Source: Candidatus Hecatella orcuttiae
GTDB taxonomy: Archaea; Thermoproteota; Bathyarchaeia; Hecatellales; Hecatellaceae
Direction of reading: 5' to 3'
Length of the DNA: 64,000 bases
NCBI GenBank assembly: GCA_002011035.2
Contig: MTLY02000002.1
Location: 310,001-374,000, forward strand
In this document: positions 25,853 through 49,819 of the stretch, in pieces
Numbering within the stretch: the stretch's first letter is position 1
How the letters are laid out: each line of letters begins with the position of its first letter
The notes under the pieces: generated by a model
Told to the model about the DNA's origin: nothing
Databases searched by the model: none
What the model saw: only the letters and a program-made list of their open reading frames with translations
Program-made: the position numbers and the translations under genes

Positions 25853-26473
25853 ATGTTCATGATCTTCTGGCGACGTAAGGAGAAGAAAGAAACAGAGCCT
25901 CCGAAAAGCCTTTCCACAGAGGTCCCTCCAGTTTTGAAGGTTGAGAGAAGCTTCACCCCCGAAGACATCGAAAAAGCCAAAAGCGAACTCAGACTCTCCA
26001 CCGTGGAGAAAGACATTCTCGGTGAAACTGTAACCCATCTTTACGAGGCCGCGGCGGAAGGGAAGATCACTCCTGAAGAAAGAGACCGCCTCATCTCAAA
26101 GTACAAGGACCAGCTGGCCATGTTGGACTCCATCGTCGAACGCAACCAGCGGATCATCAGCCTTCACGAACTGGAAGAAACCCGCGCCGAGCTTGCTAAA
26201 ATGTTCCATGATAAATTCATGGAGGTCAACACCAAGATCGAAGAGTTCCGGAGAAAACTTGGACTGAAGACCAAGGAAACCGTAGAGCTAAAGCTAGCCC
26301 CAAAGGTTGAAAGAGAAGCCAAACCGTCTCCCCCGGAAAAGGTTTCTCCACCAACCCCCACACCCGCTCCCCCGCCGAGGAAGCGGACGAAAGCCGACGA
26401 GGAACTGGAAAAGCTGAGGGAAGACCTCCAAAAGGAACTGGAAAAACTGGAGCAGATTGAGCTGGAGGCCTGA
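25853..26473 (+). CDS. Coiled-coil protein with proline-rich linker
   Basis: The 206-residue protein has a basic start (FWRRKEKKE), then a helical region (about 32-140) with AAEGKITPEERDRLISKYKDQLAMLDSI and a coiled coil, followed by a Pro-rich linker at about 160-182 (PPEKVSPPTPTPAPPPRKR) and a final charged coil. The layout of coiled coil plus proline linker plus C-terminal helix recalls CdvA-type scaffolds of archaeal ESCRT systems, but the N-terminal PRC barrel of CdvA is missing. No function is assigned. It ends 8 bp before the RpiA start and is likely cotranscribed with it. Confidence 0.65.
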   Translation: MFMIFWRRKEKKETEPPKSLSTEVPPVLKVERSFTPEDIEKAKSELRLSTVEKDILGETVTHLYEAAAEGKITPEERDRLISKYKDQLAMLDSIVERNQRIISLHELEETRAELAKMFHDKFMEVNTKIEEFRRKLGLKTKETVELKLAPKVEREAKPSPPEKVSPPTPTPAPPPRKRTKADEELEKLREDLQKELEKLEQIELEA

Positions 26474-42380: not shown

Positions 42381-43100
42381 TCAGAGAGGCTCTTCTTTAA
42401 CAGAAAACTCAAAACTTTTCCTGATCCTTTCACTTAAACTATAGCTGAAAGGTATTACATCAGTGTTTCTAACCACATAACCTTCTCTGTAAAGTTTTTT
42501 CATTAACCTCGCTGCGTGCTCCCGTGTTTTGCCGATGACCTCTCTAATTTCCGGAGCTGTTTTAGGGCCGCTGCGGTACAAAACTTTTAGGACAGCCATC
42601 TCTGTGGGGGTTAAGCGAGCGATGGAGACGTTTCCCCCCTCTAGCGTTGGACTCGGCTCCTCCAAACGTGGAGTCAAGCCTCGCATTTTTTTATCTTGGG
42701 CATTAACCTGCTGTTCAAGCTGGATACGCTTTTCATCTAGGGCAGATAGTTTATCGTTATGGACTTTCAATATTTTTGCGAATTTTGTCTGAGCGCGGAA
42801 GAGCTCTTTGATATTGGCGGTTAATGCTGATAACGTTTCCCTCTCAGCTTCATGGAAAGATTGAAGGCGGTTTAACTCTGAAAAGGAAGCTTCAATTCTG
42901 TGCAGAGCATAGGAGACACTCTCCTCAACTTTAGCCATCTTCTTACTTAACTGAACTATGGAAAGCTGAACCAAGTCGCTTAACTCCCCTAGAGAACTCT
43001 TTTTAGGCCTTCTGAATAGAAGCAGTGCGAGAAGAAATCCGAAGGCCGCTGTAAAACTCAACAAGCCTAGAAAAAACACTTCTCCGGAAAAAACCGTCAT
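42381..43100 (-). CDS. Membrane-anchored coiled-coil protein with winged helix
   Basis: The 239-residue protein starts with one transmembrane helix (about 6-29: GEVFFLGLLSFTAAFGFLLALLLF), followed by RRPKK on the likely cytosolic side. A long coiled coil follows (about 36-140), then a C-terminal MarR-like winged helix (about 160-225: RLTPTEMAVLKVLYRSGPKTAPEIREVIGKTREHAARLMKKLYREGYV). It could tether DNA to the membrane. It is convergent with the origin-adjacent small gene, and its 5' side faces the palindrome array at 43119-43500. Confidence 0.78.
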   Translation of the reverse strand: MTVFSGEVFFLGLLSFTAAFGFLLALLLFRRPKKSSLGELSDLVQLSIVQLSKKMAKVEESVSYALHRIEASFSELNRLQSFHEAERETLSALTANIKELFRAQTKFAKILKVHNDKLSALDEKRIQLEQQVNAQDKKMRGLTPRLEEPSPTLEGGNVSIARLTPTEMAVLKVLYRSGPKTAPEIREVIGKTREHAARLMKKLYREGYVVRNTDVIPFSYSLSERIRKSFEFSVKEEPL

Positions 43101-45809: not shown

Positions 45810-45880
45810 CACTCCTTTAATCTCCAAGAAATCCTTAAAACATTGTGCTGGAAAAGGGAAATAACTTTTTGCGGAGGATG

Positions 45881-46627
45881 ATAGATAAAGTTCAACCGCT
45901 TGAGGCGGCGACGACTTTGAAGCAGGATGCCAGCTGGATGGGTTCAATAATTTCCAGACTTAGGAAACACTTCGGAAAAATAATGTGGGCCAAATCGAAA
46001 GACTCTTTCGAGATTCTCGTGGCAACGATCCTAAGTCAAAACACCTCCGATGTCAACAGCCATCGCGCCTTCAGAGAGTTAAAAAAAGCCATGAAGCTTA
46101 CTCCGCAGGTTCTGGCTGAAAAGCCTCTGGGAGAGATCAAGCAGGCCATTCGAACAGCTGGGCTGGCTGAAATCAAAGCTAAAAGGTTGAAAGAGGCTTC
46201 CAAGTTCATCTTGAGGGAACTGGGAGGAAACCTGTCCAAAGTGTTCAACCTCCCTCCAGAAGAGAGTAGAAATTTTCTGCTGAGATTACCAGGTGTCGGA
46301 GATAAAACCGCCGACGTCATCTTAGTTTTCGCGGGGGGAATCCCCGTTGTTCCAGTGGATACGCATCTTTTCACCATAGGGAAGAGGCTGGGGCTTACAG
46401 CTTCCAGCCGCTACCAAGATGTCAGAGCAGCCTACGAGCGGCTTATCCCTCCAAAGGAAAGGGCGGAGGCCCATGTTCTCTTCATCGAGTTGGGGAAAAA
46501 AATCTGCACGGCTAGGAATCCTAAGCATGAAGCTTGCCCTATTCTAGACCTGTGTCCCACGGGGCTGAAATCTGTCTCCCAAGTGGATGATGAGGCTGAG
46601 AGGCGGCTTTCTGATACAGGCATGTGA
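45881..46627 (+). CDS. nth: Endonuclease III-like DNA glycosylase
   Basis: The enzyme removes oxidised pyrimidines from DNA. I favour the ATG at 45881; the frame is open from 45845. The helix-hairpin-helix is LPGVGDKTADVILVFAGG with catalytic Lys, and the catalytic Asp is in VVPVDTHLF. The C-terminal iron-sulfur loop is CTARNPKHEACPILDLC. In most family members the order is C-x6-C-x2-C-x5-C, and here the second Cys is His. The cluster may therefore have a His ligand or be lost. About 250 residues is slightly longer than usual. Confidence 0.87.
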   Translation: MDKVQPLEAATTLKQDASWMGSIISRLRKHFGKIMWAKSKDSFEILVATILSQNTSDVNSHRAFRELKKAMKLTPQVLAEKPLGEIKQAIRTAGLAEIKAKRLKEASKFILRELGGNLSKVFNLPPEESRNFLLRLPGVGDKTADVILVFAGGIPVVPVDTHLFTIGKRLGLTASSRYQDVRAAYERLIPPKERAEAHVLFIELGKKICTARNPKHEACPILDLCPTGLKSVSQVDDEAERRLSDTGM

Positions 46628-46777: not shown

Positions 46778-47413
46778 TTGAAACCGCTTAAAAACTGGGA
46801 AAAGAAGGATTCTCTCTTCGGAAAAATTAGCGACCGCTTCCACCGCACTCCGCCTTTGAGGGATAAGGTTTTCAACTCCCTCTACAAACTTAACAGCATC
46901 CAAGCTAAACTGGAGCAGTTGACCAACAAACTGGAGCAGAAGGATCGGGAGCTCTTTGGCAAATGCGCTGAATCCATGGCCCGGGGAGATGAGGAGCGTT
47001 CGAAGATCTATGCCAACGAGTGCGCTCAGCTGAGGAAGATGGCTAAAACCGTTTTGGGAAGCCAGCTGGCCATCGAGCAGGCTGCTTTAAGGCTGGAGAC
47101 GGTGAAGGAATTCGGAGACGTGGCCAAGGAGATGATGCCTGTAGCTGGTGTAGTTCGGTCGTTGAAAGGGAAGCTGGTGGGAGTTATGCCTGAAGCCTCC
47201 TTGGAGCTCAACGAAATTGGAGAAACATTAAACGAGATCATGTTCGAGGCGGGGGAAGTCTCCGCGTCGGCTCCCAGCTTCCAAGCCTCAGGGGAAGAGG
47301 CTCAGAAAATCCTTCAGTCCGCTTCGGTTTTGGCTGAGCAGAAAATGAAAGAGAAATTCCCCAAACTTCCAGTGGGAGAATTTGCGGAGGAGCGTTCTCC
47401 CGACCTCGGCTAG
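46778..47413 (+). CDS. cdvB: ESCRT-III (CdvB/Snf7-like) protein
   Basis: The 211-residue helical protein starts at TTG. Helices 1-2 are about 30-105 (SLYKLNSIQAKLEQLTNKLEQKDRELFGKCAESMARGDEERSKIYANECAQLRKMAKTVL), and helix 3 onward runs from about 106 to 160. These match the Snf7 core of archaeal CdvB proteins that constrict membranes in division. The C-terminal segment has EEAQKILQSASVLAEQKMKEK, like the autoinhibitory helix, followed by KFPKLPVGEF, which could be a MIM2-type Vps4-binding motif. No CdvC/Vps4 or CdvA gene is in the window. The paralog follows 102 bp later. Confidence 0.82.
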   Translation: MKPLKNWEKKDSLFGKISDRFHRTPPLRDKVFNSLYKLNSIQAKLEQLTNKLEQKDRELFGKCAESMARGDEERSKIYANECAQLRKMAKTVLGSQLAIEQAALRLETVKEFGDVAKEMMPVAGVVRSLKGKLVGVMPEASLELNEIGETLNEIMFEAGEVSASAPSFQASGEEAQKILQSASVLAEQKMKEKFPKLPVGEFAEERSPDLG

Positions 47414-47515
47414 TCTTCAAAACAGTCCGCAGCCTAGTCTTTCAAGACTTCCTTCAAGCTACTCCGCTTCCCCCCTCAACAGTGCGAGGTGGTTTAGGAT
47501 AGAAGGTTATTTCCG

Positions 47516-48493
47516 ATGGGAAGAGAGGAAAGACTTGAAGATGAAGTCCTAAGGATCTTTTTCGTCCTCTTGTCTGTGGTGAGTTGGTTTTTTATTCTCC
47601 AGTGGGCAGCGGAGCTTCTAGGCTGGCCCAGCCGGCCGGCGGGGTGGTCCTACCTCGCCGCCTTCTACGGGGCCTCTGCCGCCTATCTGGTGGGAAGGAC
47701 GAAAGGGCGGCTTAGAAAGGTCGTCTACGACTCCCCTTTTGCCGCTTATATCAACCTCCTGATAATCCTCGTCCCCCTATTCCTCATCTACCTAGCCTTG
47801 GCAAATCCCCCGCTGGAGGAGGCTCCTGGAAAAATCAGCCGACTGACGGCTTCAAGCCCCCTCACCTTGGCTTCAGGTTGGCTTTTCTCCTTCACCGCCT
47901 ACAGGTTTCTGGACAAGCTCTACGACAGGATTTTTGGGGTTTTCGAAAAAACCGGCCCCAGAGTCAGCTTCAAGACATCCGGCCCCATTCAAAGAGATGC
48001 GGAGGAGGTAGCGGGGAGGCTTGAGGTTGAGGCTGGAAAGCTGGCAGCCAAAGCCTCTGCTTGGGAGAAGCATGCCCACAGGTTGTACGATAAAGCCTTA
48101 GCAGCTCAGGTTTCAGGAAAAGCCGATAAAGCCAGCGCCTACCTTACAGCCTACTGGGAGGCGAAGAAGAACTCAGACCTGCTGGTGAAGGTGCAGGTGC
48201 AACTGGAAGGCTTAGTGGAGAGGCTTAAAACCCTCCACAGCTTCGCGGAAACCATGGCCGAGATGCCCTCCGCCTTCAAAACCATTTCAGAGCTTAAAGG
48301 GAGACTGAAGGGAGTTATTCCCGCTTTCTCCGGCGAACTGGAGAAGATAGGGCGAACGGTAGAAGAGCTTCTGGCCAAGACGCAGGCTCACGGCGGCAGC
48401 CTCCCAGAACAGCTCCAGGGAAAAGAGGCTCAAAAAATCCTCCTAGAAGCCGGCGGCGTAGCAGAGGCGAGGCTGAGGCATGGGAAAGACTAA
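47516..48493 (+). CDS. Membrane-anchored ESCRT-III paralog
   Basis: The 325-residue protein combines an N-terminal membrane domain with a C-terminal ESCRT-III-like domain. Hydrophobic helices lie at about 13-36, 44-61, 75-96 and 112-133. From about 150 the sequence parallels the upstream gene: WEAKKNSDLLVKVQVQLEGLVERLKTL; KGRLKGVIPAFSGELEKIGRTVEELL against KGKLVGVMPEASLELNEIGETLNEIM; and GKEAQKILLEAGGVAEARL against GEEAQKILQSASVLAEQKM. The MIM2-like FPKLP tail of the soluble copy is missing. A domain fusion that fixes ESCRT-III to the membrane is therefore likely. Confidence 0.78.
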   Translation: MGREERLEDEVLRIFFVLLSVVSWFFILQWAAELLGWPSRPAGWSYLAAFYGASAAYLVGRTKGRLRKVVYDSPFAAYINLLIILVPLFLIYLALANPPLEEAPGKISRLTASSPLTLASGWLFSFTAYRFLDKLYDRIFGVFEKTGPRVSFKTSGPIQRDAEEVAGRLEVEAGKLAAKASAWEKHAHRLYDKALAAQVSGKADKASAYLTAYWEAKKNSDLLVKVQVQLEGLVERLKTLHSFAETMAEMPSAFKTISELKGRLKGVIPAFSGELEKIGRTVEELLAKTQAHGGSLPEQLQGKEAQKILLEAGGVAEARLRHGKD

Positions 48494-48549: not shown

Positions 48550-49188
48550 ATGCTGGTCAAGAGACTGACGGTAGGGCCGCTGATGGGAAACTGCTACATC
48601 GTAGGCTGCGAGGAGACGGCTAAGGCCGCGGTCATCGACCCGGGGGCAGAGCCTGAGCGAATCTTAGAGGCGTTGAAGAAAAGCCGTTTAAAGCCTGTTT
48701 ACATTGTCAACACCCACGGCCACCCGGATCATGTCTCCGCCAATGCTCCGGTGAAGAGGAGGACCAGCGCCCTGATTCTGATACACGAACTGGACGCCTC
48801 CCTGCTTTCTTCCCCCCGCCTAGACTCGGAGATAGAGCTCCTCCTCGATGTCGGGGAGAATTCCCCCCCGCCTGACAGGCTGTTGAAGGACGGGGAAACC
48901 ATCCGGGTGGGGAAGGTCACGTTTCAAGTCCTCCACACTCCCGGCCACACCCCCGGCAGCATCTGCCTCCTCGCCGAGGGCAGCCTCTTCACCGGAGACA
49001 CCCTCTTCGCCGGCAGCGTGGGTAGGACGGACCTCCCCGGCGGCTCCCCGGAGGCCTTGAGAAACTCGCTCCAGCGGAAGCTTCTGCCCTTGGACGACGG
49101 GTTAACCGTCTACCCTGGACACGGACCCCCCTCCACCTTAGGCTACGAGAAGAAGCACAATCTCTTCCTCAAGTCTTCTTTTCTCTGA
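48550..49188 (+). CDS. Metallo-beta-lactamase fold hydrolase (glyoxalase II-like)
   Basis: The 212-residue protein has the family metal site: VNTHGHPDHVSANAP near 58, HTPGHTPGSICLL near 133, TGDTLFAGSVGRTDLPGG near 151 and VYPGHGPPSTLG near 193. The layout is that of small hydroxyacylglutathione hydrolase-like enzymes; the substrate is unknown. It follows the ESCRT pair on the same strand with a 56-bp gap. The DUF99 gene follows. Confidence 0.88.
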   Translation: MLVKRLTVGPLMGNCYIVGCEETAKAAVIDPGAEPERILEALKKSRLKPVYIVNTHGHPDHVSANAPVKRRTSALILIHELDASLLSSPRLDSEIELLLDVGENSPPPDRLLKDGETIRVGKVTFQVLHTPGHTPGSICLLAEGSLFTGDTLFAGSVGRTDLPGGSPEALRNSLQRKLLPLDDGLTVYPGHGPPSTLGYEKKHNLFLKSSFL

Positions 49189-49204: not shown

Positions 49205-49819
49205 TTGGAGGCCGCTGGGTTGGTGAGGGTTCTGGGCGTGGAAGATGGCAGTTTTCCCAGCTGGCCGGCTGGGGTTAAGAAGGGAAAGGCTCTTCTCGCC
49301 GCGGTCACTCTCCGAGATTTCACCGTCGAAGACGTTGCCCTCGCTTGGGTGGCTGTAGACGGCTGGGATGCCACCGAGGCCGTCATCCAGATGGTGAAGC
49401 AGGGAGGGAAAAAACCAGACTTGGTGATGTTGGCCTCCCTTGCCTACGCCGGCTTCAACCTCGTCGACCCGGAGGAGGTTCACCGCCGCCTCCGCCTCCC
49501 CGTCCTCATTGTAAACCCCCAGAAACCCGACAGCTTAGCCGTGGAAGCCGCCCTTAAGAAGCATTTCCCCAACTGGAAGCAGAGACTCGCCATCTTGGAT
49601 AAGGCTAAAAAACCCTACAAACTCAGCTTGGAAGAAGGCGGAGAAGTGTTCTTCTACACCTACGGCCTAAGGGCCTTCGAAGCCCGAAAGCTCATCAAAA
49701 AACTGACAGTCTTCGGCCACCGCCCCGAACCCTTGAGGGTCGCCCGGCTGATAGCCCGAGGTCTCAGCCCTTCAAGGCGCGCCAAGCATCCGAGAAAAAT
49801 CCATCACGGTCAAGGCTAA
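49205..49819 (+). CDS. DUF99 family protein (endonuclease dU-like), paralog 2
   Basis: The 204-residue protein starts at TTG: GLVRVLGVEDGSF, carrying an acidic pair in strand 1 where paralog 1 at 3691 has VNG. Further conserved parts are DGWDATEAVIQMVKQ, PDLVMLASLAYAGFNLVD and FGHRPEPLRVARLIARGL. The RNase H-like fold is related to endonuclease V, and a role in cleaving deaminated DNA is family-based. The 3' end overlaps the convergent polB gene by 48 bp. Confidence 0.85.
   Translation: MEAAGLVRVLGVEDGSFPSWPAGVKKGKALLAAVTLRDFTVEDVALAWVAVDGWDATEAVIQMVKQGGKKPDLVMLASLAYAGFNLVDPEEVHRRLRLPVLIVNPQKPDSLAVEAALKKHFPNWKQRLAILDKAKKPYKLSLEEGGEVFFYTYGLRAFEARKLIKKLTVFGHRPEPLRVARLIARGLSPSRRAKHPRKIHHGQG

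Follow-up and report, generated by a model that had tools for sequence, protein, structure and literature searches.

Our study revealed a 325 aa protein that, judged by homology and predicted fold, belongs to the archaeal CdvB (ESCRT-III) family and is integral to the membrane. It is encoded 102 bp downstream of a soluble ESCRT-III gene and on the same strand, in a stretch of 64,000 nucleotides from Candidatus Hecatella orcuttiae (the window). The initial annotation of this DNA had described a soluble ESCRT-III followed by a TM-anchored paralog, and this arrangement was borne out, as both ORFs were recovered (Table 1), both products matched CdvB profiles and four TM helices were predicted in the second. 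The reading that we favour, with a probability of roughly 45 %, is that the anchored protein is an accessory ESCRT-III that would tether or seed its soluble neighbour, beside CdvA.

Table 1. Coordinates of the ESCRT-III pair, its domains, the flanking genes and CdvA (window positions unless another contig is given)
Feature	Position	Strand	Details
Endonuclease III (nth)	45845..46627	+	Pfam HhH-GPD E=4.4e-17; upstream of soluble ESCRT-III
Soluble ESCRT-III, CdvB1/B2-like	46778..47413	+	211 aa; TTG start; NCBIfam match
Integral-membrane ESCRT-III paralog (predicted)	47516..48493	+	325 aa; ATG start; four TM helices, short linker, core
Four-TM domain (predicted)	47516..47953	+	Residues 1-146; topology prediction, AlphaFold2 helices
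ESCRT-III core helices a1-a5 (predicted)	47984..48481	+	Residues 157-322; AlphaFold2, Foldseek
Metallo-beta-lactamase-fold hydrolase	48550..49188	+	Pfam Lactamase_B E=5.1e-34; next gene 3' of anchored gene
Endonuclease dU family protein	49205..49819	+	Pfam Endo_dU E=5.1e-51
CdvA	C3:429542-429883 of window genome		PF18822 E=2.9e-23; NF041007 E=1.6e-31; PRC barrel, weak match

The soluble protein was identified as an ESCRT-III by NCBIfam (CdvB1/B2, E=2.6e-60; CdvB, E=2.1e-35), its match to Pfam Snf7 being sub-threshold (E=3.3e-4). It carries an N-terminal amphipathic stretch (SLFGKISDRFHR) and a MIM2-like C-terminal tail, FPKLP, and prediction found no TM helices in it. This is the third ESCRT-III of the family, mostly adjoining nth, which is conserved upstream of it in relatives (L046, L047, L048, L057 and L081). 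The soluble partners of the window genome (G000) and of a second genome that encodes an anchored protein (G001) were orthologous, with a clade support of 95/95 in the tree, and relatives of the soluble protein that carry a name put the family in the Hecatellales, Bathyarchaeia.

Residues 151-321 of the anchored protein matched the CdvB1/B2 model NF041005 with E=9.2e-18 (NCBIfam), at 64 bits, which is below the curated equivalog cut-off of 350 bits. Pfam Snf7 gave no match, and the protein would therefore be overlooked by routine annotation; there was also no match to PF18822 or PRC, i.e. it is not a CdvA. A two-row profile, made from the window anchored protein and its G001 ortholog and run against the PDB, hit CdvB2 (9s97, E=3.7e-25) and CdvB (9s9j, E=8e-22), the matches being confined to the C-terminal half. 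This half had been said to align with the neighbouring protein in blocks, and these blocks in fact belong to a single uninterrupted alignment of the soluble protein with the anchored core, which scored 171 (shuffles, 37 +/- 6.5). Profile searches and structure prediction had been proposed as a check for ESCRT-III in the C-terminal half, and both pointed to it. The AlphaFold2 model, made for the window copy with the G001 ortholog left out, predicted the five-helix ESCRT-III core with a pLDDT of mostly 84-98 over residues 161-290 and lower values over a5, and Foldseek returned nine significant matches, every one a CdvB2 (9s97-9s99) or CdvB (9s9j) chain, at target TM-scores of 0.61-0.77.

Four hydrophobic N-terminal helices, as initially proposed, were given by both TM prediction and AlphaFold2. 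A simplified insertion-energy scale placed them at approximately residues 11-29, 42-60, 79-97 and 114-132, where TM2 and TM4 of the window copy were weak or marginal and those of the G001 ortholog clearer, and the AlphaFold2 helices spanned residues 3-34, 43-61, 74-96 and 115-146. The TM2-TM3 loop (GRTKGRLRKVVYD) is rich in lysine and arginine, with five basic residues in the window copy and the ortholog alike, and because of this the positive-inside rule would place the loop, both termini and the core in the cytoplasm. The linker from TM4 to the core was short and modelled at low confidence; no amphipathic stretch was found in it, and N-terminal amphipathic helices of the CdvB1/CdvB2 type were not seen. 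A TM anchor at the N-terminus is geometrically sensible, and would be compatible with entry into a filament bound to the membrane, because in the solved Sulfolobus homologues it is the N-termini of the CdvB paralogues that mediate membrane binding, through short amphipathic helices (PMC12818579).

The anchored proteins of G000 and G001 are homologous over the TM domain and most likely orthologs, given the similarity of this domain (z=19.7 against shuffles preserving the TM pattern) and the shared partner. Between these two genomes, identity was 52 % for the soluble partners, 54.5 % for CdvB1 and 54 % for CdvB, against 22.5 % for the anchored core and 34 % for the anchored TM domain, within which TM2 with the basic loop reached 53 % and TM4 45 %. 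The better conservation of the TM domain than of the core suggests, from a comparison of two sequences, that the anchor is not passive, since the quickest drift should be seen in an anchor that is. These values are the ground for the main rival to tethering or seeding, namely that the protein works through its four-TM domain (a lipid- or protein-binding membrane module, a channel or a sensor) and that the core serves mainly as an address tag, directing this domain to the membranes on which ESCRT-III assembles. We consider this somewhat unlikely, as the pattern comes from two sequences only, the domain has no Pfam family and no homologue outside them, and its model, at a pLDDT of 61 when modelled alone, is of low confidence, so that no activity can be named. 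A membrane-inserted ESCRT-III acting beside CdvA as an obligate template, whose TM domain would sense or select the site and whose core would seed a dedicated soluble filament, is in our judgement unlikely.

The branches of the anchored cores were approximately 5 changes per site long in the tree, and this fast evolution suggests a weakened filament-contact constraint. With branches of this length the tree gave the cores no placement and showed no single clade; a single origin (p-AU 0.50) was not rejected, and the same was true of their derivation from the soluble partner (p-AU 0.38). The initial annotation had reported the loss of the FPKLP tail from the anchored copy, and the window copy indeed ends 3 residues past a5 and lacks a C-terminal MIM2 for Vps4, the G001 ortholog having a degenerate tail, ILPETP. 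MIM2 is not universal across the wider ESCRT-III superfamily, so its absence argues against a CdvB-type function and not against superfamily membership. Of the window pair, only the soluble copy would therefore be a substrate of Vps4, although this is less certain for G001, given the degenerate tail of its anchored protein. The anchored protein could also be a non-polymerising cap or brake, the diverged core of which binds the soluble subunit and is unable to extend the filament. Consistent with this are the missing MIM2 of the window copy, the fast evolution of the core and the retention of just 29/55 widely conserved core positions in the window copy and 32/55 in the G001 copy. However, the fold is predicted to be intact, a5 of the window copy keeps 8/10 conserved positions and sequence does not separate a cap from a seed, and we find a cap or brake quite improbable.

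ESCRT-III proteins were present in all eight genomes of the family and the anchored one in two of these, the window genome and G001, which belong to different genera and are 97-98 % complete; it was absent from two of the four genera. Conservation of the pair in related genomes had been proposed as a check; the pair is kept in a second genus, and the anchored gene is missing from 6/8 family genomes. No further credible match to the TM domain turned up in 257 class genomes, 398 phylum genomes, GTDB r220 contigs or viral contigs. Three weak class matches to it (E 2e-4 to 9e-3) were rejected, as their frames looked unrelated on reading. A survey of relatives for other TM-bearing ESCRT-III proteins covered the best-scoring ESCRT-III matches; in L072 and L078, what looked like TM segments lay 5' of the start codons that are probably correct, and the long frames of L060 and L127-L131 had no TM anchor.

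In both genomes that have it, the anchored gene lies directly downstream of the orthologous soluble paralog, at different chromosomal sites: the G001 pair is found between Alba-like and NDK-like genes (named by eye) and the window pair in an nth/Endo_dU neighbourhood. As the pair is kept at two unrelated loci, both genes move as a unit. The metallo-beta-lactamase-fold gene is not a conserved partner and is absent beside the G001 pair. The anchored gene is likewise absent at the soluble locus of the g4 genomes (G003, G005; L045, L046), where the Endo_dU gene directly follows the soluble gene, and of the g3 genomes, where a nucleotidyltransferase-like gene does so. Also in this part of the window, positions 42381-43100 encode an apparently membrane-anchored regulator with one N-terminal TM helix, a coiled coil and a MarR-like winged helix, and L081 and L087 have a TM-plus-coiled-coil gene resembling it close to their nth/ESCRT locus.

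The simplest reading of this distribution is that the anchored gene was present in the family ancestor and was then lost twice, because G001 takes the deepest branch among the CdvB sequences of the tree and G000 groups with g3; alternatively, transfer may be its source. The very long branch and the absence from 2/4 genera could be taken as signs of a decaying duplicate without function. We regard this as very improbable, as the frames are intact in two genera (325 and 346 aa, the latter in G001), the TM domains have stayed alike well beyond their shuffles and the same partner adjoins the gene in both.

The window genome (1.75 Mb, 97 % complete) has four ESCRT-III genes when searched with the anchored protein, itself included, and a separate cdv cluster (L005 9002-11834) encodes a CdvB1-like protein, a CdvB whose C-terminal region is winged-helix-like, and a Vps4 with an MIT domain. 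Directly upstream of this cluster are two adjacent paralogs of approximately 190 aa (L005 7612-8809), conserved in the Hecatellales relatives L082, L083 and L088. The genome further encodes two tubulin-superfamily proteins, CetZ-like by eye (L095 1495-2598, C3:491365; L096 1492-2829, C3:340669); one of the genes precedes the cdv cluster by approximately 10 kb, and a similar gene is located near the L088 cdv cluster.

A search across genomes with PF18822 recovered CdvA from the window genome, where its coiled coil matched strongly and its PRC barrel weakly (E=7.5e-4), from G001 and from 4/4 g3 genomes; the two g4 genomes (90 % and 61 % complete) yielded none. The initial annotation had proposed that a permanently anchored paralog could replace CdvA as nucleator, and had named as a check the absence of CdvA from genomes with the anchored copy. 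The location of CdvA could be read in favour of this, as the gene has left the operon of the other cdv genes in the window genome (L005) and its Hecatellales relatives (L082, L083, L088) and sits within it (CdvB1-CdvA-CdvB-Vps4) in other Bathyarchaeia (L084, L085, L086, L089). However, both genomes with the anchored protein have CdvA, and the g4 genomes in which no CdvA was found lack the anchored protein, the reverse of what was expected, and replacement of CdvA as division-ring nucleator was rejected as scarcely credible. The premise that CdvA brings archaeal ESCRT-III to the membrane is in need of correction as well, as the CdvB paralogues bind membranes themselves; in a 2026 structural study, CdvA filaments did not bind membranes in vitro and showed no membrane-binding region, and further tether partners were postulated (PMC12818579). 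Elsewhere in the window, positions 25853-26473 encode a 206 aa protein that combines a helical hairpin with a charged Glu/Lys-rich tail. An ESCRT survey reports an additional CdvA-like protein for Bathyarchaea (PMC10936438), with which this one may be identical, although it matches neither PF18822 nor NF041007.

Taken together, we prefer the tethering or seeding of the soluble paralog by an accessory anchored one. The four N-terminal TM helices would stand in for the short amphipathic helices of CdvB proteins and hold a complete ESCRT-III core at the cytoplasmic face, where this fixed core would bind or co-assemble with the soluble subunits encoded just upstream. A soluble filament could in this way be tethered or seeded at sites chosen by the TM domain, and Vps4 would remodel the soluble copy via its MIM2-like tail and not the anchored copy of the window. 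Such a system would be accessory, as the canonical CdvA, CdvB1, CdvB and Vps4 are retained in the genome and the anchored gene was lost from, or never present in, related genera. Counting against this reading are the fast evolution of the anchored core, the better conservation of the TM domain and the absence of the gene from 6/8 family genomes, all of them with ESCRT-III proteins.

A search of the main texts of freely available papers gave no account of an archaeal CdvB with a TM anchor, and there is none in the consulted passages of the ESCRT survey (PMC10936438). The principle of an ESCRT-III on TM helices is not wholly new, because TM-bearing Snf7 homologues have been mentioned for bacteria (PMC11237479). 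A built-in TM anchor is nevertheless unusual among archaeal ESCRT-III proteins, as all archaeal relatives with a solved structure contact the membrane by short surface helices only. With regard to how archaeal ESCRT-III rings are tethered, a natural ESCRT-III-TM fusion in a genome with a full Cdv set offers a two-gene system for direct tests of tethering and seeding. The fusion also illustrates that TM-fused ESCRT-III proteins can slip past Pfam annotation.

Among known systems, the Snf7/PspA-clade proteins of bacteria that carry a TM segment (e.g. OGG56892.1) and the actinobacterial Snf7-RND fusions, likened here by description, resemble the anchored protein in joining an ESCRT-III-superfamily domain to TM helices, but occur in operons with an ABC transporter and an AAA+ ATPase, or as a transporter fusion, and have no link to a CdvB pair (PMC11237479). 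CdvB1 and CdvB2 of the Sulfolobales (PDB 9s97-9s99; NF041005) share with it the five-helix core, the best sequence and fold match and an N-terminus that is the membrane end, whereas theirs consists of amphipathic helices on an otherwise soluble protein with MIM2 and the window copy has four TM helices and no MIM2. CdvA is the proposed functional analogue, in that it puts ESCRT-III at the division site, yet it comprises a PRC barrel and a coiled coil, has no TM helices, is not an ESCRT-III and coexists with the anchored protein in the same genome. CHMP7/Chm7 of eukaryotes has its own N-terminal membrane-binding part, a winged-helix region, and recruits other ESCRT-III subunits; with a winged-helix region in the place of four TM helices, its likeness to the anchored protein is a functional analogy only.
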